Positions 4,113 to 54,030 of a stretch of 64,000 nucleotides of DNA are shown in pieces. The notes below the pieces were generated by a model. That model was given only the letters and a program-made list of their open reading frames with translations. It was not told the origin of the DNA and did not search any database. Each line of letters begins with the position of its first letter. Position 1 is the stretch's first letter. The translations under genes and the position numbers were made by a program. Origin of the DNA: Chloracidobacterium thermophilum B (GTDB taxonomy: Bacteria; Acidobacteriota; Blastocatellia; Chloracidobacteriales; Chloracidobacteriaceae); NCBI RefSeq assembly GCF_000226295.1, contig NC_016024.1, positions 2,277,501 to 2,341,500 on the forward strand, read 5' to 3'.

Positions 4113-4165
4113 AAACTGAATTCCCTGTTCCACAGCAACCACAGCCGGTCAACCATTTCCGTCCA

Positions 4166-6353: not shown

Positions 6354-7280
6354 TCACTTCCCGGAAGGCAGGGCTTCCAACGTGTCGCTCCGGCTGGGAA
6401 ACCGTGACAACTCGGCCTTGAACTCGCCGATCTCATTGCCGCCCGTGATCCGTACGGCATAGCGATAGGCATCATCCGTAATCCACAGTCGGATTCTGCG
6501 TTCATCGGAGGGCTTCCCGTTGGCGTCGAGTGGGCGCAGCGCAAGCTGTACGACCGGGACAGTCTGCCCAGCAACCTCCAGGGTCTCACGTCCAAGGCGC
6601 TCAATCTCGACCGTCACAAGGGTGCCGTTGCGTTCGTTCAGAGCCGACAACCTGATGGTCGTTGGCCCCTCGAAATCGAGGTTGCGCGTCGTCCAGAGCA
6701 AACCGGCCAGGTCATAGGTGTCGCCACTCAGCTTGATCAAACGGCCGCCGTTGACCTGCGCCGTTCGTCCCGACTGGTCAAAAACCGTCACCGTCCGCTC
6801 AACCCGCCCTCCTTCCTTGAGGTCAGCTTCGGCGCGGTAGGGCAGCCGCGTAACCGGATCGAGATAGGTTACAAAGCGGTCGTCGAGATCAAACAACGTT
6901 GCCTTGACAAACCCGATGGTTTCAGCGCGCACAAGCAGCCGCAACCCCTCCCGCCCGTGGAACATCCCCTGCTCCACGACTTCCGTCGAGAAACGCGCCA
7001 CTGGGGCATCGCGCAGGCCCAGGCTGGGCACTGTGACCCGCACGCCGTACACGAGTTTTTCCCCAACGACGAATTTGTGGCGGGCCACTGGCAGTGCCAC
7101 AACACGCCCGTTGGCAGCCGAGGATTCCCCTGGCCCGACGACCCGTGGCCGCTGCTGGGCCGCAGCCGACACGCCCGCAACCCATGACCAGCCAACCAGC
7201 AGCAGGATACCTATCCGCATCCCACACCGAATCCTGCGACAGCCTGGCCGTTCACTCTGTTCATCAATCTTCGTTCTCAT
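6354..7280 (-). CDS. DUF3108 domain protein, exported
   Basis: 308 aa with a signal peptide (MRIGILLLVGWSWVAGVSA at about residues 21-39). The mature part matches the DUF3108 beta-rich family: a start like KFVVGEKLVYGVRV, then repeated beta strands with FVTYLDPVTRLPYRAE, DLAGLLWTTRNLDF and a C-terminal IRLWITDDAYRYAVRI. Family members are periplasmic or outer-membrane-associated and of unknown function. The start at 7280 has an AGGTGA-type ribosome site at modest spacing; the internal ATG at 7220 begins directly at the signal peptide and is equally credible. Confidence 0.8.
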   Translation of the reverse strand: MRTKIDEQSERPGCRRIRCGMRIGILLLVGWSWVAGVSAAAQQRPRVVGPGESSAANGRVVALPVARHKFVVGEKLVYGVRVTVPSLGLRDAPVARFSTEVVEQGMFHGREGLRLLVRAETIGFVKATLFDLDDRFVTYLDPVTRLPYRAEADLKEGGRVERTVTVFDQSGRTAQVNGGRLIKLSGDTYDLAGLLWTTRNLDFEGPTTIRLSALNERNGTLVTVEIERLGRETLEVAGQTVPVVQLALRPLDANGKPSDERRIRLWITDDAYRYAVRITGGNEIGEFKAELSRFPSRSDTLEALPSGK

Positions 7281-7475
7281 GTCGGCAAGTCACCTTTCCT
7301 GTAGGACGAAGCCCTCTTTTTGGAACACACCCGATGTGCGGCATCGGATGCCGCCCCCGGGCCGGATGTTGGTTAGGGTACGGCGCGATGAAAGCCCAGG
7401 TTTGTATTCTGGTTCGCAAATACTACAGCAAGCAGGTGTCACCCCAGCCTGTATTTATCCCCGCGAGCCATTCTT

Positions 7476-8288
7476 ATGCTTCAGTTCAGGCTTCGACGTG
7501 GTCATTGGCGGAAACTGTCTTTCCTGGCCTGCCTGACCGTTCTTTTTGCACTGACGACAACTCACTCCCAAGGACAATATGTCCCCGTGCGCGCCATGGA
7601 CAGCGTGCCTTTCGTTCCTGACCAGGATCAGTCCGGTGGAGCAGCCAACCCAGCCGCTCAGGGAACCGGAGGGCCGCTCCAATCCGCAGACCAAACCAAA
7701 GATGTTGCGAGCAAGGACCGCACCGGCGTCAATTTTGCTTCTGGCAAGGGTACGGTTTCCGAAGATGACTACCATCCCCTCACCGGAAAAGAGCGGTGGG
7801 AGTATTACTTCCGGGCAACTTACTGGAGTCCGGCGGCGGTGTTCGGGGCGGCCGGCCCCGCGCTGGGCGCACAGATTGGCAACTCTCCGCCAGAATGGGG
7901 CGGCGGCATCAAAGGCTACAGCCGGCGGCTGGCTTCGGAGTTTGGCAACAACATCATCACCAACAGCATCCAGTCGGGCCTGGCGGCACTCATCAAACAT
8001 GAGCCACGCTATGTTCGGAGCGCCAAGAAGGGTTTCCTGCGACGAACCGGGCACGCCCTGGCCTTTGTTTTCGTCACCTACAACGACGAGGGCAAGGTCC
8101 GGCCCGCCGTCGCCAACCTGGTCGCCGACTACGGCGGCGCGTTTGCACAAATCGCATGGTACCCAAGTCGTTACACGGTACGTGGGGACGGCGTGCGGTT
8201 TGGCAACCTGGCGCTCGGCTTCAACTTCATTGCCAATCTCATCAATGAGTTCACGCCGGACATCAAACGGGTTTTCAAGCGCAAGTAG
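7476..8288 (+). CDS. Conserved exported protein, probably cell-envelope associated
   Basis: 270 aa with an N-terminal signal sequence (LSFLACLTVLFALTTTHSQG). After a proline/glutamine-rich linker to about residue 100, the protein is rich in glycine and aromatic residues: WEYYFRATYWSPAAVFGAAG, LASEFGNNIITNSIQSGLAA and FVFVTYNDEGKVRP. The alternation of short amphipathic stretches suggests an outer-membrane or membrane-associated fold. I do not recognise a named family. It stands alone between two oppositely oriented neighbours. Confidence 0.7.
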   Translation: MLQFRLRRGHWRKLSFLACLTVLFALTTTHSQGQYVPVRAMDSVPFVPDQDQSGGAANPAAQGTGGPLQSADQTKDVASKDRTGVNFASGKGTVSEDDYHPLTGKERWEYYFRATYWSPAAVFGAAGPALGAQIGNSPPEWGGGIKGYSRRLASEFGNNIITNSIQSGLAALIKHEPRYVRSAKKGFLRRTGHALAFVFVTYNDEGKVRPAVANLVADYGGAFAQIAWYPSRYTVRGDGVRFGNLALGFNFIANLINEFTPDIKRVFKRK

Positions 8289-14600: not shown

Positions 14601-17231
14601 TCACTCGCATTGCTCTTCCACGATCTCGGCATTGATTTGCCGGAGTGTCTCCTTGACTTTGTTTTCCCAAGTGGCTGGCTTGATGCCGCCAGATTCTGCA
14701 CGCGCCTGAACAAGTATTTCCACTTCCAGCTCCGCTCCATCGTTGCGCAGTGGCAGGATCACCCCCCGGACAACATCCGAGAGCTTGTCCCAAGGCACCT
14801 TGACACGCAGTGTTACGCAGCGCCTTTCCAGTGTGCTTCGATCTGGCGGCGGCGTACCTCCACCCGGCCTGGTTGTATCGGTGCCGTCCGGTTTTTGTGG
14901 CTCATCAACCCGCTTAACCTGCAGGCCAGCTTGTGGGATGAATTCCTTTCGGATCAGAACCCACCCGGCTTCCACCGAAACATGTAGATCATCTCCAAAG
15001 TACACTTCATCGCCGCTCTTTACGGCGAAGACACGCTCGCGTACCCCTTGGATGATGGCCTGCTCGATCACCGCCGGACTTTGAACCATCGGCAACTGTG
15101 GGTAGCACAAAAAGGCCTCTCGGATGGCAGAAACCGGTTTTTCCGGTTCATCTTCCCGAAGTGCCTTCCTGAGAAGATTGTGCGGCGAGATGCGCTCCAG
15201 CAGAAGTTCCTGGCTTTTCAGATACGCGAGCGTGCGTTTGGATAGTGAGCCTTTCTCGCCAACCGTGGGTAAACCCAAATCGCTCCACTCCAGACCGCCT
15301 TCGCCGAGCTTTGCCAGATGCCGGTACGCCGAGTGCAGACTGAAAGGTATGTCACTTTCCAAAGTTCTCAACTTGCTCTCCAGCGTCCTTCGGTTGTCCT
15401 CCGACAGTTGGCGCATGAACGCTTTGTCATCGTGGATGGCGCGCAAAGCGAGAAGCCGCTTGACCTTCTGCCGCAGAGAAGAAAGCTCGCCCTCGTCAGA
15501 AGCCAGCACAAGGAGTGTGTTCTGATAGGTGCGAAAGGTTACACCGCACTTCTTCAACAGCTCATCCACAAAGGCATTGGTTGCGCGGCTCTGCTTTGGG
15601 TGTTCAGGCGGGAGGATCGCCAATTTCAGGTCTTTTGTGTCAGGCACGTCCTGCGCCCCTTTGGGCCAGAGCGTCACGCGCAGCTCAGTACCGGCGAGCT
15701 TTTCAAGCCGAGCGCGAATCTCTTCAGCCATGTGCTCATCCCCAACCGCCTCCTCTTTCTCCACAATGACGCGGTTGAGGTTGGGCTGACTGGAGAAAGA
15801 ACAAATGCCCCCCTCCACGTGCAGATACCAGAGTTCCTCCTCAAGCCGGCGGAGCGCATCGCCGACCAGCGCCGGCGGGATGCCTTCGCGCAACACTGCC
15901 AGGCGCAAACGCTGAACGCCGAGGCCCTTCCTCTCACTTCCGCTAAAGGAGCCAAAAAAGATGGCGGTCGCCAATCCGCTGGCAATCCCGAAGCGGGTGT
16001 ATTCGGAGCCTACCTCACGATCGATCTTCTGGGCTTTGGCATTGCCGCCGGCGATGTCTGCTGCGATAACGCCCTCGTACTCATTCCCAATGTGCTTGAC
16101 CAGCTCCCGCCGCACCGTGGCATTGGCAAGGTTGAGGTGCGCCGGCTGAATGAGCGGCGCCGGGTGCTGGCGTTGGTAGAGGTCGGCCACCACCTCCGCC
16201 AGCAGCCGCAGCACGCCGCGCGTGCGTTGGAACGTGGAATATGTACTCCACCGCTCAAACAGAAGGTCAATCAGCTCCGGGTGGAACGGGTACGCCTTGC
16301 GCAGTTTGTCGCGATAGGAAGGCTCGCGCACTTCGCGTGGCACTTCATCGCCAAGCCGCTGATACATCTCCCAGTAGCCATTGGCGACCTTGCGCGCTTC
16401 GTCGGAAGGTTCGTGGGCCCACTCAAACAACCTGCAGCGGATGATCTCATACATTTCTTCGCCTTCGACCGGCGTGTAGATGGCTTCCACCCGCCCGAAG
16501 ACCTGCTGTAACTGATGCAGCACCCGCTCCCCATCTTCGCCGTAAGGCGCACTGGAAGGAAGCGTGACCACCAGCGCACACCGGGGCAGCACCTTCACCG
16601 CTTCGGTCAGCTCCTGAAAAAAGGCCACAATCTGCTCCCGGAAATCTTTGGCTTTCACGACATACTCGGCCACTTCGTCCATCAGGAGCAGTGTGGGCTT
16701 GTCGGCAAGGACCTTGTGGAGCAGGTCCTTGCCCGGAGCGCGCTGCTTCCGGTCATGCTCGGCAAGCAGGGTGTAGTGGCCCAACTGTTCGGCAATCTCC
16801 CCCCACGGCGTCCGGCCCAGCGGGTCGGCCGCCGTGCCGGTAAAGGTCACCACCCGGACGGCAGGGACACTATCCAGTTGCGCCTTCTCCAGTACCTGCG
16901 AGACCGGCCCGGCGGGGCGGCCTGCCTGGGAATTGGTAAAGAGGTGATACAACGCAATCAGGCTGTGGGTCTTGCCGCCACCAAAGGGCGTCTGGATTTG
17001 AATGACCGCATTGCCGGCTTTCTGACCGGACAGGCGTGAGGCAATCACGGCGAGCAGGTTCACCAGGCCCTGCGTCGGATAGGTTTTGCGGAAGAAGGTC
17101 TCCGCATCGCCGTATTCCAGCGGGCCGCGGCCGGCAACAACATCGGAGAGATCGGCCGCAAAAACGGATTCGTCAAACTTGCCCGCCCGGATGTCCGGGT
17201 GCGGGACGGCGATTTCATGCCACGGCTTCAT
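14601..17231 (-). CDS. DUF499 ATPase of an Hma-type (helicase-methylase-ATPase) defence locus
   Basis: 876 aa, P-loop protein with Walker A TPFGGGKTHS (residues 81-90) and Walker B LLLMDEVAEY (181-190). N-terminal KPWHEIAVPHPDI and ESVFAADLSDVVAG are typical of DUF499. The remainder is helical with regions such as YPFHPELIDLLFERWSTY. DUF499 ATPases occur next to DUF1156 methylases and SNF2 helicases in defence islands; the likely role is ATP-driven action on DNA or protein partners. It is transcribed leftward, last in the island. An IS605-type element begins just upstream of its start, leaving GGAGG as ribosome site but separating it from the methylase gene's promoter. Confidence 0.88.
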   Translation of the reverse strand: MKPWHEIAVPHPDIRAGKFDESVFAADLSDVVAGRGPLEYGDAETFFRKTYPTQGLVNLLAVIASRLSGQKAGNAVIQIQTPFGGGKTHSLIALYHLFTNSQAGRPAGPVSQVLEKAQLDSVPAVRVVTFTGTAADPLGRTPWGEIAEQLGHYTLLAEHDRKQRAPGKDLLHKVLADKPTLLLMDEVAEYVVKAKDFREQIVAFFQELTEAVKVLPRCALVVTLPSSAPYGEDGERVLHQLQQVFGRVEAIYTPVEGEEMYEIIRCRLFEWAHEPSDEARKVANGYWEMYQRLGDEVPREVREPSYRDKLRKAYPFHPELIDLLFERWSTYSTFQRTRGVLRLLAEVVADLYQRQHPAPLIQPAHLNLANATVRRELVKHIGNEYEGVIAADIAGGNAKAQKIDREVGSEYTRFGIASGLATAIFFGSFSGSERKGLGVQRLRLAVLREGIPPALVGDALRRLEEELWYLHVEGGICSFSSQPNLNRVIVEKEEAVGDEHMAEEIRARLEKLAGTELRVTLWPKGAQDVPDTKDLKLAILPPEHPKQSRATNAFVDELLKKCGVTFRTYQNTLLVLASDEGELSSLRQKVKRLLALRAIHDDKAFMRQLSEDNRRTLESKLRTLESDIPFSLHSAYRHLAKLGEGGLEWSDLGLPTVGEKGSLSKRTLAYLKSQELLLERISPHNLLRKALREDEPEKPVSAIREAFLCYPQLPMVQSPAVIEQAIIQGVRERVFAVKSGDEVYFGDDLHVSVEAGWVLIRKEFIPQAGLQVKRVDEPQKPDGTDTTRPGGGTPPPDRSTLERRCVTLRVKVPWDKLSDVVRGVILPLRNDGAELEVEILVQARAESGGIKPATWENKVKETLRQINAEIVEEQCE

Positions 17232-17246
17232 AGAACCTCCGCCAGG

Positions 17247-17260
17247 AAACCTGCGACTTT
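17247..17260 (+). repeat. Left-end subterminal hairpin of the IS200/IS605 element
   Basis: Palindromic GCGACTTTAGTCGC forming a 5-bp stem with the loop TTTA. It matches the layout of the right-end hairpin and is the probable TnpA binding site. Confidence 0.75.
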
Positions 17261-17317
17261 AGTCGCGGGAGGAATGGCGCTTGCGCGGTGCGCACCCTGT
17301 GGTGTGTAATACAGCCT

Positions 17318-17731
17318 ATGGTTGACATCGCCAGCAACAGGAACTGCGTCTATCAAACCGCATACCATGTGGTTTGGTGTCCGAAGTATCGGCGAGATGT
17401 ACTGACAGGGCCGGCGGCAGAGGAAATGGCGGTGATGCTGGATGCGATATGTGCAGAGCGTGGCTGGCCGGTGATCTCCAAAGAGATTCAGCCCGACCAC
17501 ATCCACCTGTTCGTCAGCATTCCGCCTGCCATGGCTGTGGCCGATGCCGTAAAAATCCTGAAAGGAACAACGGCGCGCAAGCTGTTTCAGCGGCATCCCC
17601 GGCTCAAGAGCCGACTGTGGGGCGGAAATCTCTGGTCGCCCTCCTACTATGTCGGCACAGCCGGCAACGTCAGCGCCGGGACGATCCAGCGCTGTATCGA
17701 ACGATCCGAACACGTCACCAGGCGGCGATAA
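17318..17731 (+). CDS. tnpA: IS200/IS605 Y1 transposase TnpA
   Basis: About 137 aa HUH-type single-strand transposase. The metal-binding HUH pair is visible in QPDHIHLFVSIP, and the catalytic tyrosine region in WSPSYYVGTAGNVS. The start YQTAYHVVWCPKYRRDVL is the classical Y1 opening. The protein is full length, with no frameshift, so the element could still be mobile. ATG at 17318 is selected because the conserved domain starts immediately behind it. It ends 3 bp before tnpB. Confidence 0.95.
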   Translation: MVDIASNRNCVYQTAYHVVWCPKYRRDVLTGPAAEEMAVMLDAICAERGWPVISKEIQPDHIHLFVSIPPAMAVADAVKILKGTTARKLFQRHPRLKSRLWGGNLWSPSYYVGTAGNVSAGTIQRCIERSEHVTRRR

Positions 17732-17734
17732 CCC

Positions 17735-18877
17735 ATGTTGCGCACGGCCTCGATTCGCCTGAATGTTGGCCCCGACCAGGCAGCGGCCCTGGCGGCGCTG
17801 CAAGCGGCTTATGCCGATGCCTGCAACCGCCTGGTGCCGACGGTGGTGGAGCATCGCTGCTGGAACCGCGTGGCCCTGCACCACCTGGCCTACGCCCGGC
17901 TGCGCAAGGAAACGCCGCTGGGCGCCCAAATGGTCTGCAACGCCATCTTTTCGGTCTGCAAAGCCTACAAAGCACAAAAGGAACTCGGCCGCATCAGGAA
18001 GGACGCCCCCGTACCCGCAGTGCACTTCAACCGCGCCAGCGTCCATTTCGACAAGCGAACCTACGCCATAAAGGGGGAGTGCCTGAGCCTTTACACCCTT
18101 TCTGGCCGCATCGCCGTCCCGATGGTGCTGGGCGAGCACCAGCGTCGCATCCTGGCGTCGGGCAAGGCCAAAGAGGCCGAGTTGGTTTGTCGCAAGGGGC
18201 GCTGGTACTTCAATCTCGTCGTCGAATCTGAAGATTCGGATCCAATCGCATCCGGCCGCGTCATGGGCGTGGATGTCGGAGAGAACCATCTCGCTGCCAC
18301 CAGCACGGGCAAGGTATGGGGCGGCGGGCAACTGCGCCACAAGCGCAACGGCTACCTTGCTCTTCGTCGTCGTTTGCAGTCCAACGGCAGCCAAAGCGCC
18401 AAACAGAAGCTGCGGCAGGTCTCTGGCAAAGAGCGGCGACGCATTACCCACATCAACCACGAAACGAGCAAAGCGATCGTTGCCGAAGCGCTGCGCTTCG
18501 GGGCGTCCAAGATCGTGATGGAGGACCTCACCCACATCCGCGACCGCATCCAGGCCGGCAAGCGCATGAGGGCGAGACTGCACGGCTGGGCATTCCGGCA
18601 GCTTCAGAGCTTTGTCGAATACAAGGCCAAGGCGGCAGGGATCGCGGTCGAGTACGTCGATCCCGCCTACACCAGCCAGACGTGCTCTTGCTGTGGAGCG
18701 CTGGGACGGCGCATCAAGCATCGTTTTGTGTGCAACAAGTGTGGTCTCCGGGCGCACGCCGACGGCAACGCCAGTCGAAACCTTGCCCGGATTGGCAGTG
18801 GTGCCCCGCTGCCAAGGGCGGCCGTAAACACGCCTGATGTTGGGGATGTCAGCCATAATTGCTGCGTCTCACAATAA
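17735..18877 (+). CDS. tnpB: TnpB, RNA-guided RuvC-like endonuclease
   Basis: 380 aa. RuvC acidic residues are all present: D180 in VMGVDVGENHL, E263 in KIVMEDLTHIRD and D343 in RAHADGNASRN. A four-cysteine zinc knuckle (TCSCCG and CNKCGLRA) lies between the last two. TnpB proteins of IS200/IS605 elements are guided by an RNA from the right end of the element and cut near a short TAM, helping the element persist. The sequence appears intact. The long opposite-strand frame across this gene is not a real gene. Confidence 0.95.
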   Translation: MLRTASIRLNVGPDQAAALAALQAAYADACNRLVPTVVEHRCWNRVALHHLAYARLRKETPLGAQMVCNAIFSVCKAYKAQKELGRIRKDAPVPAVHFNRASVHFDKRTYAIKGECLSLYTLSGRIAVPMVLGEHQRRILASGKAKEAELVCRKGRWYFNLVVESEDSDPIASGRVMGVDVGENHLAATSTGKVWGGGQLRHKRNGYLALRRRLQSNGSQSAKQKLRQVSGKERRRITHINHETSKAIVAEALRFGASKIVMEDLTHIRDRIQAGKRMRARLHGWAFRQLQSFVEYKAKAAGIAVEYVDPAYTSQTCSCCGALGRRIKHRFVCNKCGLRAHADGNASRNLARIGSGAPLPRAAVNTPDVGDVSHNCCVSQ

Positions 18878-18905
18878 AGCCTTCGACTTTAGTCGAGGGT
18901 TGTTT
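18740..18905 (+). ncRNA. Putative right-end guide RNA (reRNA/omega RNA) of TnpB
   Basis: Inferred from position only. In known elements the guide RNA overlaps the 3' end of tnpB and runs to the right end, with the guide taken from the flank. Here the right-end hairpin TCGACTTTAGTCGA sits just before position 18900 and the flank starts with TTGTTTACTG. No independent structural signature was verified. Confidence 0.35.
18885..18898 (+). repeat. Right-end subterminal hairpin of the IS200/IS605 element
   Basis: Palindrome TCGACTTTAGTCGA, sharing the CGACTTTAGTCG core with the left-end hairpin. The stop codon of the neighbouring HEPN gene lies only a few bases to the right, so the element inserted right behind that gene. 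Confidence 0.75.
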
Positions 18906-19327
18906 ACTGTTTTCCTTCCCGCGCGATGATTTCCTGGGTCAAGTTGACGGCTTTTTCAGCCAGTTCGAAGAGTGCGGAGGCTTTTGCCTGGTCAAAAAGC
19001 TCCCATGGCGTTCGCCAACGCGCTTCGTCGCCATAGTCGCTTTCAAAATGCACGTCGGGACCCAACACACTCGGCCACCTGCCGTACTCTGTCCCCTGTT
19101 GTCCAAGGGAAGCAACCCTCCTCCAGCGCCTTGAGTAACATTTCCCCAGGGTTGTGGGTACGACCAACAGGACCTATGAGCGCCAGCAGGGCTTTTGCAG
19201 CATTCTCGGCCGCAAGTTGACTGTTATCGGCACAGGAGCGCCAGCGTCCGAGCTGCAGGTCGTGGCGCGCTTCCTCCAGAAAGCCCTGGGCCAATTTCAG
19301 TCGGTACTGGACTTCGGGATTGCTCAT
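18904..19327 (-). pseudogene. HEPN-domain gene with one-base frameshift (MNT-HEPN pair 1)
   Basis: Reading from 19327, the first frame encodes a HEPN start (EVQYRLKLAQGFLEEARHDL, then AAENAAKALLAL and GRTHNPGEMLL) and breaks into a stop near 19043. Adding back one reading-frame shift at about 19068-19071 restores the expected end, VLGPDVHFESDYGDEARW and ELAEKAVNLTQEIIAREG, giving about 140 aa with a stop at 18904. So a single extra base interrupts an otherwise full-length gene. It overlaps its nucleotidyltransferase partner by 4 bp (ATGA). HEPN proteins are often RNA-targeting toxins or antitoxin-controlled effectors. A sequencing error is the main alternative. Confidence 0.75.
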
Positions 19328-19815
19328 GCTTCACCTATTTTTTCCCACGACATCATCCAACGGCCGCGAGGTGGAACCTTCCAACGCCAAAGGTCGCCTG
19401 CCGGAGTTCTTTCTCTGAAAAGCCCGGCCTCCTCGATCAATCGCTGCAAAGTAGCCAGGCGCTTTGCTGCATAGCCTTTGGGGTCGTCAAGGATTTGACC
19501 ATCAACGGCAATGTCCAGATACAGGGAAGAAACGTGAGCCTCAAACTCTTGCGGCGTCCTGGCAAGGAAGGATACGCCAAGCCGGCACCGTATGGGGAGA
19601 AACTGCCTGAGAAAACGCCCTCGTTCCAGCGGGTCATCGGGCAACGCCTCGGCAATCACCAGCACGTCCCAGTCGCTGTCCTCCCGTGCCTCCCCGCGCG
19701 CCCGAGAGCCGAAGAGAACAACAGCCACCAGACGGTCTCCGAGCGCCGTCCGCAAGGCGGCCACTACCCGGTCAAGAAGCTCCTTCTTGTGATTTGCAGG
19801 CAATGTCATTCCCAT
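19324..19815 (-). CDS. MNT-type minimal nucleotidyltransferase (pair 1)
   Basis: 163 aa. Contains the nucleotidyltransferase signature VVLFGSRARGEAREDSDWDV, i.e. GS followed by a spaced DxD pair that binds metal and nucleotide. Such MNT proteins are paired with HEPN genes in toxin-antitoxin modules, where the MNT partner may modify or AMPylate the HEPN protein. It overlaps the following HEPN gene by 4 bp and lies between the methylase gene and the DUF499 gene. ATG at 19815 or 19809 are both possible starts; no strong ribosome site favours either. Confidence 0.85.
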   Translation of the reverse strand: MGMTLPANHKKELLDRVVAALRTALGDRLVAVVLFGSRARGEAREDSDWDVLVIAEALPDDPLERGRFLRQFLPIRCRLGVSFLARTPQEFEAHVSSLYLDIAVDGQILDDPKGYAAKRLATLQRLIEEAGLFRERTPAGDLWRWKVPPRGRWMMSWEKIGEA

Positions 19816-19818
19816 CTG

Positions 19819-19878
19819 TCAAACCGGCCCCTGCGGGATGTCCCCGTAAGAAACGGCAACCTGATGCCACGGTTTCAG
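19819..19878 (-). pseudogene. Remnant of the 5' end of a second DUF499 gene
   Basis: A short frame directly behind the methylase stop codon reads LKPWHQVAVSYGDIPQG and then a stop. It aligns with the N-terminus of the intact DUF499 protein, MKPWHEIAVPHPDIRAG, sharing KPWH, AV, DI and G. The copy is diverged rather than identical, so it is a paralogous relic, not a recent duplication. It marks where a DUF499 gene once followed the methylase, before MNT-HEPN pair 1 and the insertion sequence were placed there. Confidence 0.7.
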
Positions 19879-19884
19879 GACGCT

Positions 19885-22800
19885 TCAGGAGGTAAACAGA
19901 CCTGCCTGATACGTCCCCTGTTTCTGGTAGCTTTTCCGCCCGTAGAGCAGGCCCTGCAGAAGTTGCTTTTCCTTGTCGCCATCGGGCAAGACCTCGGCAA
20001 TCGCCTGCGCCACCTGCCAGAAGACTTCGTTGTCACCGTACGTCAGCCCCAGGTGTTCCTTCAGCCTCTTCGGCTCATTCTGCTCCCACAACCAGACCGC
20101 GTAGTGCATGGCGTCAATCAGGGTGTCGAATCCTGTCTTGCCGGCAAAGTTCCGGCTGCGGGCGCGTTCCAGCGGCAGCGGGAGGCGGATGTATTCTTTC
20201 TGCTTCTCCACCAGCCCGCCCTCGCCCCAGAGCGTGGCAAGTTCCACACCGATGCCCTGGGCCAGCTTGCGTACCTCGTCAAAAGGGACGCGGGCATGGT
20301 TGTACGTCCAGCGATACAGCAGGTAAAAGCGGGTCGGAGCGTCCAGACCGCCCAGTTGCGCCGATTGCAGGATGCGCTTCAGGGCAAACTCGCTCACCAC
20401 TTTGCGGACATATTCCAGCAACTCGGCCACCGTGACCGGCTCGCCGGAGAGCTTTTCCACGCGCTGATACTTGCCGAAGACCTCAACGGCCGGACCGATG
20501 GCGCTCATAAAAAAGTCTGCCCCGCGAATTCCCGCGTCCCAGAACTGCGCCAGCCGGCGGCCGATCCGCTCCTCGATCTCACGGCGGACTTTGCCGAATT
20601 CGCCCGTCTGGTCGGTAGTACGTTTGCGACAGACCATGTAGATGGAGGAAGCCAGCGATGCGGTTTCTTGTGCGTTCAGCCGCGCCTGCATCTCGGTGTG
20701 AATGGGCCAGGAAGCGGTCATATACAGGCCGGCATCCAGCAGGGCGTTGATGACGGTTTCCCATGCCGCCGTGGTCTTGTGGGCAAAAACGATAACAGCC
20801 ACACCATCAGGTTTGAGCACGCGGCGGATTTCGCTAAAAGCCTGGGTGAGCATCTGCTCGAACCGCCGCATGGCGTTCTCCATGCCGCCCGCTTTGCTGG
20901 CATCGGCCACCATCTCTTCGGACTTGGGCGTAAGCGGCGTGGCGAAAAGGTCGGGGTAAAGGTCGCCGATGGTGCGCTTGAGCCAGACGTAGAAGAAATC
21001 CGAGAGGGCTGAGTAGTTCACATTGTCGTAATACGGCGGATCGGTCAGCACCGCGTCAAAATGGTCGTCGGGCCAAGGAAGCGCCGTGGCGGATGCGTGA
21101 TGAGCACTGCCAAGCGGGTTTGTGTGCGAGATGCTCGAGAAGTGAGCAAGGTTGCCCGTCGAATCGCCAATCAGGCTTTGCCAGCCGCTCGCATGCTGGA
21201 CTGGGTTCATCTCGATATAGTCCCACAACATCGGCAAGGCCTGCCTCGTGAAAGTAAAGCCAATGGCTTGCGTTTGCGGAATGACACGGCACAGGGCAGA
21301 GTTGCGATCAGATAAGCGGCCTACAGCCAACGCCAAATACGTCGCCACGGCTTTGGCGAACTCGGGGTCGGTGCGGGCGGCGGTCATGCGGGCGTGGGCT
21401 TGGCGGACTTTGTCGGCGAAGGTGATGAGCGCTAACTTCTGCCGCACGTTGAACAGGTCGCCCCATGTCGGCATTCCATACATCGGAGGACGATCAACTT
21501 CGTGACAGGGAGTTATAATTTCCTCATCCGGCACGGGTTCGATGCCCCATTCTTCGCGGAGGCGGGCGCGTTTGTGTTCCAGTGCGGTTTCGGCGGCGCG
21601 GTAGGCTTCCAGGTCGCGCTCGGTGGGCAGGCGGTAGGTCTTGCCCGTGCGCTTCGGATGGTGGAGCACGACCGCCATCAGGCGCTGGCCCGATTTGCCC
21701 TCGCGGAAAAGGCGGCGGGTGGTCTTGTCGTCTATCGTTCCGCCGCAGAGCGGGCAGCGGACATGGGCACGCGAAACGGTGCCCTCCTCGGGGTCGAAGT
21801 CGAGCGGCTGTCCATCCGCCCCGACAATCTGGGCATCTATGCGCCGGGTTTCGCGGTTCGGGATAAGGCGCAGGGCAATTTTCTTGTTGTCTTTTTTGGC
21901 CAGCCAGGTCTGGCGCATAAGGGGGATTTCAGCGCCGCAGGCGGGGTTCTGGCAGGGCAGCGTGCGCGCCCAGAGGTAGCCGACGGGAATGGAACCATCG
22001 GGGTCCTTCGGGTAGAATTGCTCTAATTCCTTACGGGCTTCTTCGACTATCCACTTGCCCCAGGCGGAGACAGCCTGGAGAAGAGGACTTTCGGCGCGCT
22101 CGGCGGATACTTCCAGCAGCTCTAAATTGGACTGAGAGTGCTCTTCAGATCGCGGCGGAAGTGGCACATTGCTGACGCTGTCGGGCTGACCGAACTTGTG
22201 CGGGTATTCCAGCACAGCTTTGTTGAGGAGCACGGCGACGGGGTTGTAGTCGAGCGCGTAGGTTTCGCAGCCCAGGCGCAGAGCTTCGAGGGGAATGGCT
22301 CCGCCACCGGCGAAGGGGTCGAGCACGCGCGGGGCGCGTCCGCCGAAGGCCTCGCGGATACGCTCGCGGGCTTTTTCGATCTGCGGGGCGTTGCCGTTCG
22401 AGACCACCTCCCACGGCGCAATGTCGCGCACAAGTGCCAGCAGTTCCTCGCGCTGTCCCGATTCATCGGGCAGAAGCGCTGCCAGCGCCGTTGCACGCGA
22501 GGCCGCCAGCGGACGCCGCGCCCACCAGATGTGGAGCGTGGAGATATGCCCGTGGCGGATGGTTTTCTCGTGTACCGATGCCTCGGAGACCCGGCGTAGA
22601 GGGAAATCCACTTCGATCAAACGCTGGTTATTCACAGCAGACCTCGATGCCTGAGATATTCTTCGGTCCACAACACAAATTGCTCCGCATGGGGTTGTAG
22701 AACCCTCTATATCTTCTTCTTCCAGTCCACTAATGGTTTCATAGTCACCCGCCTGGCATTTCTCGAAGGCATCAATCAACCAGCGGTGCATCTCGACAGG

Positions 22801-23016
22801 CATTTCGTTGGTTTTAGCAAAATGTTGACCAAAGGCAGAAATGACAGCCTGGTGATTTGAAAAGGTCAAGCCTTTGGAGAACAGAAGAGCTTCCGCACAA
22901 TAAAACATGGCATAGTACAACCTTGAGGCCGATGAGTCATAACCCCGCACATCCTTGAGGAGCTTTGCGGACTTCAGGAATTGCCGTGCTTTCTGGATAG
23001 CGGGCTGGAATTCCAT
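19885..23016 (-). CDS. HEPN domain fused to DUF1156 DNA methyltransferase
   Basis: About 1043 aa from the ATG at 23016. Residues 1-105 form a HEPN domain ([40 protein letters not shown]). A linker leads into the DUF1156 methylase: [39 protein letters not shown] (about 157-175), motif [18 protein letters not shown] (about 233) and motif [22 protein letters not shown] (about 658), with Cys pairs (CQNPACG, CPLCGG) probably binding zinc. An in-frame GTG at 22635 with a GAGGT box 5 nt upstream could start a methylase-only product of about 916 aa, so both forms may be made. This is probably the modification and recognition subunit of the Hma set. It directly follows the nucleotidyltransferase gene. 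Confidence 0.88.
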
Positions 23017-23017
23017 T

Positions 23018-23354
23018 TCATACCCCGATCTGTTCCCTTCTGACATTGACCATAAAGGGTGACTGACGCGCTTTGTGCTTCTCGGCTGAAACCGGGAAAA
23101 CAGAAAGAAGAAGCCCATGGCGCAGACATATTTCTGAAAGAAGCGGACTCAGCCTGGTCATCTCGGTTCCCGGTTTCACTTCACCCTTGAGAACGATGAG
23201 CACATCAATGTCTGAATCTTCGGTGAAATCGCTGCGCGCGTACGAGCCGTAGAGATAGACGCCCCCCCAACCGCTCGCCGTAGAGATTGATCAGCGCGGC
23301 TTTGAGTTCCTGCAGGGCCAGGCGTACCGACTGGGGCAGCTCATCGGTCTTCAT
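23018..23354 (-). pseudogene. MNT nucleotidyltransferase with G7 frameshift (pair 2)
   Basis: Start ATG at 23354 overlaps the helicase stop by 14 bp. The first frame reads KTDELPQSVRLALQELKAAL and then meets a run of seven C on the plus strand (23262-23268, G7 in the mRNA), after which the proper sequence continues one frame away: VYLYGSYARSDFTEDSDID, then VLIVLKGEVKPGTEM to a stop at 23018. With six G the gene would be open and would end 1 nt before the HEPN ATG at 23016. This can be phase variation by slippage, decay or a base-calling error in the homopolymer. Confidence 0.8.
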
Positions 23355-26300
23355 CGCTTGCCTCCTGCCAGTTTTTCACCACGTACCGCACGATTTCGGC
23401 CTGCTCTTCGGGTTGCAGTCTAGCAGCGGGGTTCTGGATGGTGTGGAGCCGTGGCTGGCTTGCCGCATGCTCGACAACGTAGAGCCAGTAGTCGTTACCC
23501 AGACGCTGCGCCATCAGCCATTCGTTGGGGGTGAGCACGATGGCGCCGGTCGTGGCGCGGGCTTTGACCTCAATGTAGCGCACACTTTCCGCCTGTTTCT
23601 CTTCCGTAGGTGGCGTCCTTGAGCGGATGTCATAGCCAAGATTTTGCGTTGAGACATCTTCCGGCACACGCCCGTGCTCCCGTTCGTACGCCATGGCCAC
23701 CTGCATACCGATGGCTTCAATCTGCGCATCAGACCGCATGGCTCCATTGGCCGCCGGTTGGGGGGTAACCCGCGCCACACCCAACACCTTTGGGGTTGAG
23801 GGCAGCAGGCTGGTTTCGCGGCGGATGGCTTCTTCAAGCGCCCGTTTACGTCCCTCCAGTTCTTCCCTTCGCCGCTGTTCGTTGAGCACTTCCATGTCGG
23901 GAAGGTTGTCGCCCTTTGCGCGGCGGGTCTCGTAGTCAATCAGTTTTGCGTCGGATTCCACAATCATCTGCTCCAGCGAACGCAGCCCGTATTTGCGTTT
24001 GATAGCCGCACGGCGCTGACGCTCTTCGAGCAGTTCCGCGCGATAGGATTCCAGGACCTTTTCAATGGCGAAGGCCAAGGCCTCGTTTTCGTCCGGGATG
24101 GTCCCTATCTCCGATGGGAGCTGCGCGGGTTTCAAATCCCAGAGAATGGAGGGATGGACAGAGGTCAATGCTCCCTGGATGGGATGGTAGATGACAAAGA
24201 TGCGCTTTCCGGCTACCTGATTGGCGCCATCGCAGATTTCCCCCTCCAGGAAGAAAAGCCAGCCGTCCATCCGTCCATCTGGGTCAGCAAAGACGGCCCC
24301 ACGGCGCACATCTTCGGCGCACCCGCTCAGCAGGCGGTCCAGCAGCGCTTCGAGCAGGGGGTGACCGGGCGCAACAAATTCTGCCTCCTGACGACGAGCC
24401 GTCTGTTTGTCGAAGGCCAGTTTGCCGTACTTCCGGAAGACCTCGCCGAAACGATCCTTGAATTCCTGTGAGACGTGGTGAATTTCGTAAGGCACGTTGG
24501 GCAGGCGCCACAGGCCATCGCGGCGGCGTTCGAGGTGGATGTTGAGAAAATGGCAGGCGCGCTCGAAGAAACGTTCGATGTATTCCGGCACCAGGCGGTT
24601 TTCACGGGCGCGCCGATCCTCGCCCAGGACGCGCTGCAGGTCAATGTGGCGTGTCGCCAAACCTTCCAGGGCGGCTTTCCGGGCTCGGTCCACGGCCTCC
24701 TGGTCGGGCAGGGCTTCGATCTCGGCAATGATGTCCTCCAGCGTGCGCCGGTTGGTAATGGCTTCGACGATGAGCTCCTTGAGGCTGCGGCCCGGGATGA
24801 CTTCGCCGATGACATCAAAAACGCGGTCACTTCCCAGTGCGGTCTGAACCTGCTCAAGCTTGTGGAAGAGCGCCGTCAGCACCTTGCCTTCGCGGGTATC
24901 GGCGGCGACCAGGTTGTAGATATGCACCTCTTTTTGCTGACCATAGCGGTGGATGCGCCCCATGCGCTGTTCGAGACGGTTAGGATTCCAGGGGATGTCG
25001 TAGTTGACCATCAGGGAGCAGAATTGCAGGTTGATGCCCTCTCCGCCTGCCTCGGTGGAGACCATCACCTGTGCCTGCTCACGGAACTCATGCTCGGTGC
25101 GAATGCGCGCTTCCAGGTTCAGGCCGCCATGCAGGGCGACGACGGTATAGCCCCAGTCGGTGAGTTTCTCCTTGAGATATTCCAGCGTCTCCCGCGATTC
25201 GGTGAAGATCAGAAGCTTCTCGCCCGTTTGCCGGATGTGCTCGGCTTCCATGACGTTCCGCAGCTCGTTGAGCTTGGTTTCTATCTCGTACCGTTCGGCT
25301 TCGCGGGCCAGGCGGATGAGATCGTCCAGGGTGGCGATTTCGGCTTGCAACTCCTCGCGAGTTTCGGCGGCGGTGAGTCGTTCCAGCAGCTCTTCTTCGT
25401 GCCTGAGGCGCTCGGCTTCGGGAACATCTTCCAGCATGTCCTCATCCACCGTGCCGCGTTCGGCGAGCCAACTGCCCAGCCGGAGAAGTTCTTCCAGCCG
25501 CTCCCGGCGGCGTTCAAGCGAGCGGCGCACGGCCCGAACGCTGGAGGCCAATCGTCGCTGCAGGATCAGCAGGGCAAAGGCCACGTTCCGCTTATCCGCA
25601 ACCAGGGCTTTGTTGTAAGACTTCTCCACATATTCGGTGACGGCGTTGTAGAGGCGTTTTTCCTGGTCGTTGAGCTGATAAGTCTTTGTGGCCACCCGGC
25701 GCGGCGGGAAGAGGAGTCGCCCCTCAAAGTCTTTCAGGTCTTCCTTCAGGCGGCGCAGGAAGAGCGGATTGTCGGCGTTCTGCACCGCTTCGCGGAGCTG
25801 CTCGGGATTGGCGAAGAACCCGGGCTGGAGAAGCTCCAGAAAAAGGTGAAAGTTCTCCGGGTCGCCGCGATGGGGAGTGGCGGTCAGAAACAGCAAAAAG
25901 TTGCTTTTGCGCGAGAGAAGTTCACCCAGGCGATAGCGCCCGGTACGGGTTGTCTTTTCGCCATAGCGGTAGGCGGCCATTTTGTGGGCTTCGTCAACCA
26001 CCACCAGGTCCCAGTGCGCCTCGCCCAGGCTCGCCAGCACGTCGTCCTGTTTGGCAAAGTCCATCGAGGTGACAATCTGGGCGTTCTCCTGCCAGATGTT
26101 GCGGCCCCAGGAGGCATCCATGACGCTGCGGTCAACCACGGTGAAGGTTTCGCCAAAGCGTTCTTTCATCTCCCGCCGCCACTGGTCTTTGAGGTGGCCC
26201 GGCACAACAATCAGCGTACGCTGCACCAGCCCGCGATACTTCAGCTCCTTGAGCAGCAGGCCGGTCATGATCGTCTTCCCCGCACCAGGGTCATCGGCCA

Positions 26301-26673
26301 GCAGAAAGCGGATGCGCGGGTTGGGCAGAATGTAGTGGTAAACAGCCTCGATCTGATGTGGCAGCGGATCGACCTGCGAGACATTGACCGCAAGCAGTGG
26401 GTCAAACTGCTGCGCATAACGGATACGGTGCGCTTCCATGGCGAGGAAGAAGGCTTCGCCGCGTCCACCAAAGTCGCGCCCTGTCTCGGTCGTTGCACTT
26501 ACATGCGCCAGGTCAGACGCACTGAGGATATGCGAATAAAATCGCTCGGTCTTCGTACCAACGGCTTTAATCCTGATACGGCTTCCAAGCTGCTCGTGCG
26601 TGAGCAGGCGCAACGGCTCAGGCCAAAAATCCCCTTCAAGTAAAGCACCAACTTTCAGCGCACTGTCGCCCAT
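23341..26673 (-). CDS. SNF2-like DNA helicase with DUF3883 C-terminus (Hma-type)
   Basis: 1110 aa. Motif [21 protein letters not shown] with Walker A at residues 127-134, DEAH box at 227-230 (VVVDEAHKMA), motif III LTATPHRGDPENF and helicase C-terminal motifs V/VI (STEAGGEGINLQF, RMGRIHRYGQ). A DUF3883-type nuclease-like or nucleic-acid-binding tail follows near residues 1020-1090 (ESVRYIEVKARATTGAIVLT). The start at 26673 has an AAGGAG box 11 nt upstream. It is transcribed before the methylase and its stop overlaps the nucleotidyltransferase start, so they are translationally coupled. The helicase-methylase-DUF499 set resembles the Hma defence type as I recall it. Confidence 0.9.
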   Translation of the reverse strand: MGDSALKVGALLEGDFWPEPLRLLTHEQLGSRIRIKAVGTKTERFYSHILSASDLAHVSATTETGRDFGGRGEAFFLAMEAHRIRYAQQFDPLLAVNVSQVDPLPHQIEAVYHYILPNPRIRFLLADDPGAGKTIMTGLLLKELKYRGLVQRTLIVVPGHLKDQWRREMKERFGETFTVVDRSVMDASWGRNIWQENAQIVTSMDFAKQDDVLASLGEAHWDLVVVDEAHKMAAYRYGEKTTRTGRYRLGELLSRKSNFLLFLTATPHRGDPENFHLFLELLQPGFFANPEQLREAVQNADNPLFLRRLKEDLKDFEGRLLFPPRRVATKTYQLNDQEKRLYNAVTEYVEKSYNKALVADKRNVAFALLILQRRLASSVRAVRRSLERRRERLEELLRLGSWLAERGTVDEDMLEDVPEAERLRHEEELLERLTAAETREELQAEIATLDDLIRLAREAERYEIETKLNELRNVMEAEHIRQTGEKLLIFTESRETLEYLKEKLTDWGYTVVALHGGLNLEARIRTEHEFREQAQVMVSTEAGGEGINLQFCSLMVNYDIPWNPNRLEQRMGRIHRYGQQKEVHIYNLVAADTREGKVLTALFHKLEQVQTALGSDRVFDVIGEVIPGRSLKELIVEAITNRRTLEDIIAEIEALPDQEAVDRARKAALEGLATRHIDLQRVLGEDRRARENRLVPEYIERFFERACHFLNIHLERRRDGLWRLPNVPYEIHHVSQEFKDRFGEVFRKYGKLAFDKQTARRQEAEFVAPGHPLLEALLDRLLSGCAEDVRRGAVFADPDGRMDGWLFFLEGEICDGANQVAGKRIFVIYHPIQGALTSVHPSILWDLKPAQLPSEIGTIPDENEALAFAIEKVLESYRAELLEERQRRAAIKRKYGLRSLEQMIVESDAKLIDYETRRAKGDNLPDMEVLNEQRRREELEGRKRALEEAIRRETSLLPSTPKVLGVARVTPQPAANGAMRSDAQIEAIGMQVAMAYEREHGRVPEDVSTQNLGYDIRSRTPPTEEKQAESVRYIEVKARATTGAIVLTPNEWLMAQRLGNDYWLYVVEHAASQPRLHTIQNPAARLQPEEQAEIVRYVVKNWQEASDEDR

Positions 26674-27190: not shown

Positions 27191-27545
27191 TCACTGCAAG
27201 GTCTCTCTGGCCAACCGCTCCAGTACCGGAAGCAAGGGCGGAATATCCTGAGAAACTGTTTTCCAGATAATCTGCAAGTCAACACCGTGATATTCGTGAA
27301 TGAGTTTATCGCGCATCCCTGCGATTTCCTTCCAGGGAACTTCGGGATACCTGCTCCGGGTATCTTCCGGTATCTTCCGGTATCTTCTTTGCTGCCTCGC
27401 CCATGACCTCCAGCGAACGAATCACTGCATTGGCGGTCTTCCGATCATGGATGAATTCTTCGGGCCTCATCCCCTCCACAAACTCCAAAGCCTCTTCGGC
27501 CGCGTTCCACATGTCCTCCAGATAGTCCTTCAAGGTTCGGCTCAT
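27191..27545 (-). pseudogene. HepT-type HEPN toxin gene disrupted by 10-bp tandem duplication (pair 3)
   Basis: The frame from 27545 begins as a normal HepT (MSRTLKDYLEDMWNAAEEAL, NAVIRSLEVMGEAAKKIPED) but then shifts and ends 79 aa in. On the plus strand the decamer CGGTATCTTC is repeated at 27368-27377 and 27378-27387, after a near copy at 27357-27367. Removing one 10-bp unit restores TRSRYPEVPWKEIAGMRDKL and IHEYHGVDLQIIWKTV to a stop at 27191, a 114-aa protein, the same length as the intact neighbour. The lost part carries the RNase motif RDKLIHEY (Rx4HxY). It overlaps the mntA-like gene by 4 bp. Confidence 0.85.
27357..27387 (+). repeat. 10-bp tandem repeat causing the HepT frameshift
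   Basis: Three consecutive units: an 11-base variant CGGGTATCTTC region at 27357-27367, then two perfect CGGTATCTTC units. The copy number decides the frame of HepT of pair 3. Confidence 0.85.
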
Positions 27546-27835
27546 ATTGGCAACGCCTCTTGGAGGATGTACTTGCCGATGTGGGGTTTGAGGGCCTGGC
27601 GCGTCACCAGTTCCACCCGCACGCCCAAGAGATCGCTTAGGTACTGCTCCAGTTGAAGGAACCGAAAGAAGCCGGGGGGATCGTCAAACTCCACCAGGAT
27701 GTCCAGGTCACTTTCTGCCGTCGCCTCTCCCCGCGCATGGGAGCCGAAGATGGCAAGCTCCCGAACCCCGTAGCTTTGCGCCAGCTCTTCTTTGTGCTGC
27801 CGGAGAATCTGTATAAGCTGCTCAAGGTTTTCCAT
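27542..27835 (-). CDS. MntA-type nucleotidyltransferase antitoxin (pair 3)
   Basis: 97 aa. Carries AIFGSHARGEATAESDLDIL, the GS...DxD nucleotidyltransferase motif, and ends with the usual ALKPHIGKYILQEALPI. MntA proteins neutralise HepT RNase toxins by polyadenylylating a tyrosine near the Rx4HxY active site. The gene is intact and overlaps the start of its HepT partner by 4 bp. It sits between helicase fragment C and the disrupted hepT-like gene. Because the toxin is broken, this antitoxin may survive without its original partner, or act on HepT of pair 4. Confidence 0.88.
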   Translation of the reverse strand: MENLEQLIQILRQHKEELAQSYGVRELAIFGSHARGEATAESDLDILVEFDDPPGFFRFLQLEQYLSDLLGVRVELVTRQALKPHIGKYILQEALPI

Positions 27836-27836
27836 T

Positions 27837-27950
27837 TTACTTTCCTCCCAGCGTGCGTTGTACCGGCCCGCGATACTTCAGCTCTTTGAGCAGCAGGCCC
27901 GTCATGATCGTTTTCCCTGCGCTGGGGTCATCGGCCAGCAGAAATTCGGG
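27837..27950 (-). pseudogene. Helicase fragment C (Walker A region)
   Basis: Minus-strand reading [20 protein letters not shown] then LKELKYRGPVQRTLGGK and stop, nearly identical to helicase residues about 122-153 (Walker A here DDPSAGKT instead of DDPGAGKT). It begins directly after methylase fragment B and ends 1 nt before the MntA ATG at 27835. It is therefore a rearranged piece of another helicase copy. Confidence 0.85.
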
Positions 27951-27977
27951 CTTCTGAAACAGCTTTGCAGCATCATA

Positions 27978-28098
27978 CGCTTGAGCCAGACGTAGAAAAA
28001 GTCCGAGAGGTCGCTATAAAGCACATTGTCGTAACAGGGTGGGTCGGTCAGCACGCATCAAAGAAGTTATCCGGGTATGGAAGGGCAGTAGCAAAGCC
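27978..28098 (-). pseudogene. Methylase fragment B (DPPY region)
   Basis: Reads [15 protein letters not shown], then one missing base, then [19 protein letters not shown] and YVWLKR. It matches the intact methylase around motif IV, but the DPPY motif is mutated to DPPC and the frame is lost. It starts about 20 bases after the stop codon of the intact HepT of pair 4 and ends directly against helicase fragment C. Confidence 0.85.
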
Positions 28099-28118
28099 TT
28101 GCTGAACATGCAGAAACT

Positions 28119-28463
28119 TCATAGCCCTTGCAATTGTTCTAAAATTTGCTTCAGCTTGGGCTTAAGCCTGGGCAATTCCCTTTGAATCGTTTCCCAGAGC
28201 AGATCATTCTTGATGCCAAAGTAAAAGTGAATAAGCCGATCCCGAAATCCAGCCATGGCTTTCCAGGGAATGTCGGGGTATTGGTGCTTGATAGGGTCGG
28301 GAATATGCTTTGCGGCCTCGCCAATGATTTCAAACTTTCGTATGACGGCGCTGGAGCGCATGTCATCCCGGCAAAAGGTCTCAACGTCTATGCCTTCTGT
28401 GAATCGCTCTATGGCCTCCATAGCCTCCAGGATGTCTTTCAGGTAAAGGGTGGGGTCTCTCAT
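28119..28463 (-). CDS. hepT: HepT-type HEPN toxin (pair 4, intact)
   Basis: 114 aa, DUF86/HepT family. RSSAVIRKFEIIGEAAKHIP is the typical central helix and RDRLIHFYFG carries the Rx4HxY RNase motif. All elements are present. HepT proteins cleave or target RNA (tRNA in known cases) and are held inactive by MntA. The gene overlaps its antitoxin gene by 4 bp. It is placed exactly where a methylase gene has been broken apart (fragments D before and B after). Confidence 0.9.
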   Translation of the reverse strand: MRDPTLYLKDILEAMEAIERFTEGIDVETFCRDDMRSSAVIRKFEIIGEAAKHIPDPIKHQYPDIPWKAMAGFRDRLIHFYFGIKNDLLWETIQRELPRLKPKLKQILEQLQGL

Positions 28464-28756
28464 AAGTACACGGCCTCTTGCAGAACCCGATCGCGGATTT
28501 CTTCCCGGAGAGCATCCACTGGAACGATATCCACGCGGATGCCCAGCCTTTCTTCAAGGAAGTCGGCCAAGCCGACCAGGTCAAAGAGGGTAGCTCCTGG
28601 AGTAAACCTGACCAGCACATCCAGGTCGCTGGTCTCGCGCTGCTCTCCGCGCACATAAGAGCCGAAGATACCCACTATCTCGGCCCGGTAGCGACGCCGT
28701 ATCTCTTCCGCAACCCCCTCCAACTGACGAAGCAAGCTCTGCACGTCCCCAGCCAT
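28460..28756 (-). CDS. mntA: MntA-type nucleotidyltransferase antitoxin (pair 4, intact)
   Basis: About 98 aa from the ATG at 28756. IVGIFGSYVRGEQRETSDLD is the nucleotidyltransferase motif. The C-terminus (ALREEIRDRVLQEAVYL) is typical. It overlaps hepT by 4 bp. The longer frame back to 28858 runs through methylase relic D and should not be counted as part of this protein. Confidence 0.9.
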   Translation of the reverse strand: MAGDVQSLLRQLEGVAEEIRRRYRAEIVGIFGSYVRGEQRETSDLDVLVRFTPGATLFDLVGLADFLEERLGIRVDIVPVDALREEIRDRVLQEAVYL

Positions 28757-28803
28757 CGCTACCACCTTCCCCCGACGGAATGTTGCCAAGGTGAGCAAGA
28801 ACC

Positions 28804-28884
28804 TCAAGCACAACTGCCTCGCGCTTCGCTGAACGGGTTTACTTCTCCGTAATCCCATACCATTGGCAGCGCTTGGCGCTCAAA
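28804..28884 (-). pseudogene. Methylase fragment D
   Basis: Reads FERQALPMVWDYGEVNPFSE then ARGSCA and stop, matching [17 protein letters not shown] of the intact DUF1156 methylase. In an unbroken gene this segment would precede the DPPY region (fragment B) by roughly 45 residues. Here the complete MntA-HepT pair 4 sits between them. The rest of the 28757-29071 gap shows nothing else recognisable. Confidence 0.75.
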
Positions 28885-29071
28885 ACTGCGCTCAAAAGAG
28901 AGCACATCGGAGCGCCATCGTGTCAAAACGCATAGGCAGGATGTGTCCTCTACGTCTCCGCGCGCCGACTGATGACTGATTCTGTCTGGCTTTCAACAGC
29001 CCCCCACGTTCCGAGTACAGCTTGGCCCGGTGGGAAGGACTGAATCCACTGGCTGTGCAGGAAAGCTGGAG

Positions 29072-29145
<74 letters not shown>

Positions 29146-53721: not shown

Positions 53722-54030
53722 ATGATGCACGAGCGGATACGATTCCCCAAAGACCAGGTTGCTGAGTTCTGCCGCCTTCACCACATCCGGCGTCTGGCAG
53801 TATTCGGTTCCGCCTTGCGTTCCGATTTCAACGAGAACAGTGACATTGACATTCTGGTTGAGTTCGAGCCGGAGCACATCCCTGGACTGTTTGGCATAGC
53901 GCGTATGGAGCGCGAACTTTCAAATCTTCTCGGCGGGCGCAAGGTTGATGTACGCACGCCGGAAGACCTGAGCCGGTATTTTCGTCAGGACGTGCTGAAT
54001 GAAGCGGAGGTGCAGTATGCGCAGGAATGA
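53722..54030 (+). CDS. mntA: MntA-type nucleotidyltransferase antitoxin (pair 5)
   Basis: About 102 aa. Motif [20 protein letters not shown] with GS and DxD. C-terminal [20 protein letters not shown] typical. ATG 53722 or 53725. Overlaps the hepT start by 14 bp. Intact. The pair is outside the Hma island and unlike the island modules it has no relics next to it. It probably keeps HepT inactive by nucleotidylation. Confidence 0.9.

Follow-up and report, generated by a model that had tools for sequence, protein, structure and literature searches.

The 64,000-nucleotide stretch of the hot-spring bacterium Chloracidobacterium thermophilum B analysed here (contig NC_016024.1; hereafter the window) carries a minus-strand operon that profile matches and gene order assign to the Hma (helicase/methylase/ATPase) systems, also known as Type-1 DUF499-centred BREX-related systems. 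Pairs of nucleotidyltransferase (MNT) and HEPN genes occupy both gaps between its core genes: MNT1-HEPN1 between HmaA and HmaB (the A/B gap) and MNT2-HEPN2 between HmaB and HmaC (the B/C gap). We consider it probable that such pairs are recurrent toxin–antitoxin cargo embedded in Hma gaps and that in this strain the HEPN arm is dead while the core would still restrict. The genome carrying the locus comprises 3,695,372 bases in two contigs.

PADLOC profiles match HmaA, HmaB and HmaC at this one locus, in the order A-B-C on a single strand. The full minus-strand order is SNF2 helicase, MNT1, HEPN1, DUF1156 methylase, MNT2, HEPN2 and DUF499 ATPase, with an IS200/IS605 element on the opposite strand (17288-18877, plus) separating HEPN2 from the ATPase gene. 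The initial annotation of this DNA had seen the SNF2-DUF3883 helicase, the DUF1156 methylase and the DUF499 ATPase in one leftward block, with which the coordinates and the Pfam and PADLOC matches agree; its assignment to the Hma type is borne out by the profile matches and the gene order. The frames of all four small genes were checked against their orthologues in the relative L132. The operon consists of the following features:

23341..26673, minus strand: HmaA, SNF2 helicase with a C-terminal NOV_C/DUF3883 nuclease-like domain, 1110 aa, open (Pfam; PADLOC HmaA 5.7e-221)
23018..23354, minus strand: MNT1, whose frame breaks in a G7 tract near 23265; its downstream half has GSX10DXD and matches PF01909 at 1.1e-9 (L132 MNT1 matched in two frames)
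22632..23016, minus strand: HEPN1, a Class II protein of PF05168 with a frame change between 22717 and 22706 (HEPN 2e-11; L132 HEPN1 matched in two frames)
19885..22635, minus strand: HmaB, DUF1156 N6-adenine methylase, 916 aa from GTG 22635, open (Pfam DUF1156 1.4e-20; PADLOC HmaB 8.4e-138)
19324..19815, minus strand: MNT2, intact, 163 aa (PF01909 3.3e-8; PDC-S09 2.7e-15; 61% identical to L132 MNT2)
18904..19327, minus strand: HEPN2, a Class II protein whose frame breaks at 19067/19065 (first part matches PF05168 at 4.5e-9; L132 HEPN2 matched in two frames)
17735..18877, plus strand: TnpB (IS605 OrfB), between HEPN2 and HmaC (PF07282 6.7e-24, PF01385 2.3e-9)
17288..17731, plus strand: IS200-type transposase TnpA (Y1_Tnp 4.1e-37)
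14601..17231, minus strand: HmaC, DUF499 AAA+ ATPase, 876 aa, open, without a fused HEPN (DUF499 1.3e-44; PADLOC HmaC 2.3e-153)

The C-terminal domain of HmaA is predicted from its sequence to be a PD-(D/E)XK nuclease: residues 985-1079 match NOV_C/DUF3883 (4.8e-24), and GYD...YIEVKA is present.

Among the embedded small genes FRAMESHIFTED, MNT1, HEPN1 and HEPN2 carry one frameshift each and MNT2 is intact, so that neither pair retains both of its frames in the 454-based assembly. The MNT1 frame switches at the G7 tract (about 23262-23268). The initial annotation, which did not mention the IS200/IS605 element, had read the following points of the layout correctly: the MNT1 ATG (23354) falls within the end of the helicase gene, which stops at 23341; the HEPN1 ATG (23016) lies one base past the MNT1 TGA (23020-23018); and the second pair follows the methylase, at 19815-18904. 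Because three of the four small genes are frameshifted, including both HEPN toxins, while the core and MNT2 are open, the arm is probably dead in this strain.

To place the modules among relatives, we sampled 40 loci from the phylum and 80 close methylase relatives out of 84,980 species, one genome each. MNT genes were detected by motif and by profiles seeded from the window, and their frequencies are therefore lower bounds; many of the relatives are metagenome bins with contig edges, and the gap counts leave out one duplicate and rearranged loci. The order A-B-C is kept in nearly all loci where it is visible. Inserts of at least 250 bases are found in 57/98 A/B gaps and 44/92 B/C gaps, and MNT genes in 7/98 and 10/92, respectively. 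The MNT density is 0.095 per kb in gaps and 0.0071 per kb in flanks, a 13-fold difference, with 18 gap MNTs seen where the flank rate predicts about 1.3. At least one gap holds an MNT in about 16 of the 80 close relatives. Both gaps hold one in L132, L179 and L201, and apparently also in L133, a short contig (Fisher p = 0.006 for double occupancy, not corrected for relatedness). In the distant relative L132, orthologues of the two window modules occupy the corresponding gaps, most pieces being 53-64% identical, and the L132 methylase is the sister of the window methylase on the methylase tree (SH-aLRT 90). On this tree MNT presence requires 10-11 changes, or about 10 gains or losses. The modules thus insert recurrently above the local background, and MNT/HEPN pairs are among the commonest gap cargo. 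The initial annotation had tied its functional link to the modules not being a one-off insertion; given the recurrence and the tree changes, a one-off insertion is rejected. In three Poribacteria loci (L184, L186 and L195), the ratio of nonsynonymous to synonymous substitution rates (dN/dS) is 0.08-0.13 for MNT, 0.23-0.29 for HEPN and 0.09-0.16 for the core genes; the embedded pairs are under purifying selection there.

Within the host genome, 4 of the 15 PF01909 domains lie within about 9 kb of 3.7 Mb, a clustering around the Hma operon that is more than chance. A further PF01909 nucleotidyltransferase domain is found in the window at 53761-54006 (plus strand), distant from the operon, and outside the window, at G000:C2:511115-511436, a HEPN match next to an MNT is divided between two overlapping frames and may be a further frameshifted HEPN. 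On viral contigs, a search with a HEPN2 24-mer for a second copy of the locus found none, a single-protein scan yielded nothing, and an alignment scan returned 24 Hma-like loci, 0 with the MNT motif. A plasmid search for MNT2 gave one weak match.

The initial annotation had also proposed that MNT/HEPN is a built-in effector arm of the system, which proved too strong. MNT genes are absent from most homologous loci at either position, at the gap frequencies given above, and about 80% of the close relatives lack the modules. So do the three other intact Hma loci examined from the genus (L029, L030 and L031), which read A-B-C with no insert; their HmaC proteins are instead extended at the N-terminus by about 167 residues that include a HEPN-like RN(R/K)WAH motif. 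The same gaps hold many unrelated toxin–antitoxin and defence genes, including AAA_21/OLD-like, Schlafen, DarT/macro (DarTG), Fic and AbiEii (AbiE) genes, and MNT2-like genes of the phylum sit on contigs other than the methylase-matching ones. Both HEPN genes are, moreover, frameshifted here. HEPN-fused HmaC and gap MNTs do not co-occur (0/11 versus 16/84, p = 0.20), and mutual exclusion of the two was dropped as not significant.

Several individual loci illustrate the range of gap contents. L029 (G000:C1:1413000-1432000) is the other intact Hma operon of the same genome and is free of inserts; a further HmaB locus of this genome lies at 2624000-2643000 (L028), where no clear HmaC was found. 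In L094, near-identical GIY-YIG-like genes (by translation) occur one per gap of one Hma operon (4151-4432 and 7248-7547), placing cargo of the same family in both gaps. A HicB/HicA-like pair, recognized by translation only, precedes MNT2 in L132 (12790-13451), so toxin–antitoxin pairs stack in one gap. L188 and L198 (Calidithermus and Meiothermus) differ in both core order and cargo: HmaC precedes HmaA, and the space between HmaA and HmaB is taken by DarT/macro-type genes.

From sequence and family knowledge we infer the following course of methylation, restriction, toxin control and loss of function. HmaB would methylate adenine in host DNA, and the HmaA helicase-nuclease together with the HmaC ATPase would attack unmodified DNA. 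The A/B and B/C gaps would act as slots that repeatedly take up toxin–antitoxin and defence genes, co-directional with the operon and often with a start overlapping a stop. In intact relatives, MNT/HEPN would most likely serve as a second line or an addiction lock: by analogy with Class I pairs, the MNT would adenylylate and silence the HEPN during normal running of the operon, and a disturbance of the operon or the cell would let the HEPN arrest growth of the cell. In C. thermophilum B the HEPN arm would have been lost, leaving only the core to restrict.

The operon sits in a strain-variable island beside a tRNA-Val gene. Together with broken Hma pieces upstream, it fills the space from a Memo-family gene (ending at 14486) to the tRNA. 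In G003, G004 and G005 the Memo-family gene adjoins tRNA-Val, leaving an empty site, and the sister species G001 retains about 1.6 kb at the site (a helicase N-terminal fragment, MNT4, HEPN4 and a methylase fragment). No direct repeat of the tRNA region of at least 9 bases was found at the far island boundary. The upstream part contains two more MNT/HEPN pairs, MNT3/HEPN3 flanked by methylase fragments and MNT4/HEPN4 flanked by helicase and methylase fragments:

29071..29145, minus strand: tRNA-Val, site of the island (empty sites in G003, G004 and G005)
28807..28929, minus strand: HmaB fragment
28460..28858, minus strand: MNT3, open (PF01909 3.9e-14)
28119..28463, minus strand: HEPN3 (HepT-like, RX4HXY), open (PF01934 1.1e-29; motif)
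27971..28161, minus strand: HmaB fragment (DPP(Y/C)Y motif region)
27837..28013, minus strand: HmaA fragment (Walker A region; translation)
27542..27835, minus strand: MNT4, open, with a helicase fragment on one side and a methylase fragment on the other (PF01909 2.5e-17)
27191..27545, minus strand: HEPN4 (HepT-like, RX4HXY), frameshifted by a 10-base insertion, open in G001 (comparison with G001)

All four MNTs (MNT1-MNT4) carry GSX10DXD. MNT3-HEPN3 and MNT4-HEPN4 are Class I pairs, each with a PF01934 HEPN bearing RX4HXY (RDRLIHFY in HEPN3; RDKLIHEY in HEPN4, as read from G001). HEPN1 and HEPN2 are PF05168 proteins without RX4HXY beside a GSX10DXD MNT and fall into Class II, as defined in PMC7641770, which knew of no biochemistry on that class and reports adenylylation of HEPN by MNT as shown for Class I only. 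Lacking RX4HXY, HEPN1 and HEPN2 would be no more than putative RNases even as intact copies, although some PF05168 HEPNs have been suggested to use other active sites (PMC3710099).

A competing view, possible but the less likely, holds that the modules are selfish passengers that stabilize their host locus and add no defence, piling up in the gaps because they do no harm at these places, and decaying afterwards. The diverse, unrelated MNT families at the gaps, the MNT2-like genes located elsewhere in other genomes, the decayed modules of this strain and the remnants of MNT/HEPN pairs among the broken pieces upstream all suit it. Against it, the 13-fold MNT density in gaps over flanks and the low dN/dS fit selection on the combination, with the reservation that addiction alone could also lower dN/dS.

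It is unlikely that MNT/HEPN is a working, built-in Hma arm in this strain, in which Hma would sense foreign DNA and free the HEPN to cut RNA and the frameshifts would be sequencing errors. The genome (2011) was obtained from Roche 454 reads of a culture that was non-clonal and non-axenic (PMC8245765), the MNT1 lesion lies at a G7 tract, orthologous modules stand in the same places in L132 and embedded pairs are under purifying selection in other lineages, all of which would favour a functional arm. Since 454 data contain homopolymer errors, about 41 kb of coding sequence neighbouring the operon was compared between the window and G001. The non-triplet indels listed fall in extensions of open reading frames, antisense reading frames or the remnant region, which leaves 0-1 true frameshifts in this single-window control; only that at window position 60112 is possibly within a real gene. 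No frameshifts occur in the 8.7 kb of core genes, all three of which are open, compared with three in the about 1.15 kb of MNT1, HEPN1 and HEPN2, a frequency well in excess of the local one. Neither the HEPN1 lesion nor the HEPN2 lesion lies in a long homopolymer. Given the 0-1 frameshifts in the control, sequencing error appears unlikely as the cause of all three; the MNT1 G7 lesion, taken alone, could stem from 454 error or mark a phase-variable tract. That most relatives lack the modules, and that HEPN1 and HEPN2 lack RX4HXY, also speaks against a working arm. An acting HEPN RNase in C. thermophilum B is doubtful because both HEPN genes read as frameshifted.

Three points count against embedded cargo with a dead arm: most close relatives (about 80%) are without the modules; the frameshifts, most of all the one at the MNT1 G7 tract, may be errors of an assembly built from 454 reads of a non-clonal culture; and the 41-kb control rests in part on inspection by eye.

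Quite unlikely is a selected paired lock on operon integrity, in which an Hma subgroup would carry two different MNT/HEPN modules, one per gap, with the Class II HEPNs as effectors. Very improbable is a genuine HEPN1-methylase fusion protein with a new function: HEPN fused to DUF499 ATPases is known in this system family (PMC12839542) and, as the initial annotation had seen, one open frame of 1077 codons covers both domains, but that frame results from the HEPN1 frameshift, the natural HEPN1 C-terminus (22 residues) and stop (22634-22632, overlapping the methylase GTG start) sit in a second frame, matching L132, and no HEPN-methylase fusion was seen among the 80 relatives.

Hma, Hma-embedded genes and the MNT or MNT/HEPN candidates PDC-S09 and PDC-M05 have been described (PMC8565338; PMC12988326, citing a 2024 preprint). 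The locus shares with the Hma system of PMC8565338 (PADLOC HmaA-HmaB-HmaC) the same three core genes, strongly matched and in the same order in one operon, and differs in its MNT/HEPN pairs in both gaps, their frameshifts and the IS200/IS605 element before HmaC. With the Type-1 DUF499-centred system (PMC12839542) it has in common an SNF2 helicase with a nuclease-like C-terminus, a DUF1156 N6-methylase and a DUF499 ATPase. In contrast to that system, the window HmaC is without the N-terminal HEPN fusion found there in 1370/2446 taxa, and HEPN is present as separate MNT/HEPN cargo; HEPN, alone or with MNT, was noted near BREX and BR loci in the same study. The MNTs match PDC-S09, one of the Hma-embedded, guilt-by-embedding candidates (PADLOC HEC, PDC-S09, PDC-M05) cited in PMC12988326. 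As in those candidates, a nucleotidyltransferase and a HEPN are embedded between core genes; unlike in them, two modules of different types are present here, one per gap, with 3/4 genes frameshifted. Relative to the HepT/MntA pairs of PMC7641770, the MNT motif is shared by all four window MNTs and RX4HXY by HEPN3 and HEPN4 (Class I), whereas the operon's own HEPN1 and HEPN2 are frameshifted Class II proteins of PF05168 without that motif. No description of the two-gap MNT/HEPN arrangement was found in the literature searched.

The apparent HEPN-methylase fusion in a 454 genome is a caution, as it is a frameshift product. For the family, the locus shows that a single restriction-like operon repeatedly takes up toxin–antitoxin pairs between its genes and that selection maintains them in certain lineages, while such cargo appears to decay in this strain and the core stays open. 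Whether embedded toxin–antitoxin genes act as effector, lock or passenger thereby becomes a question testable on defined operons.

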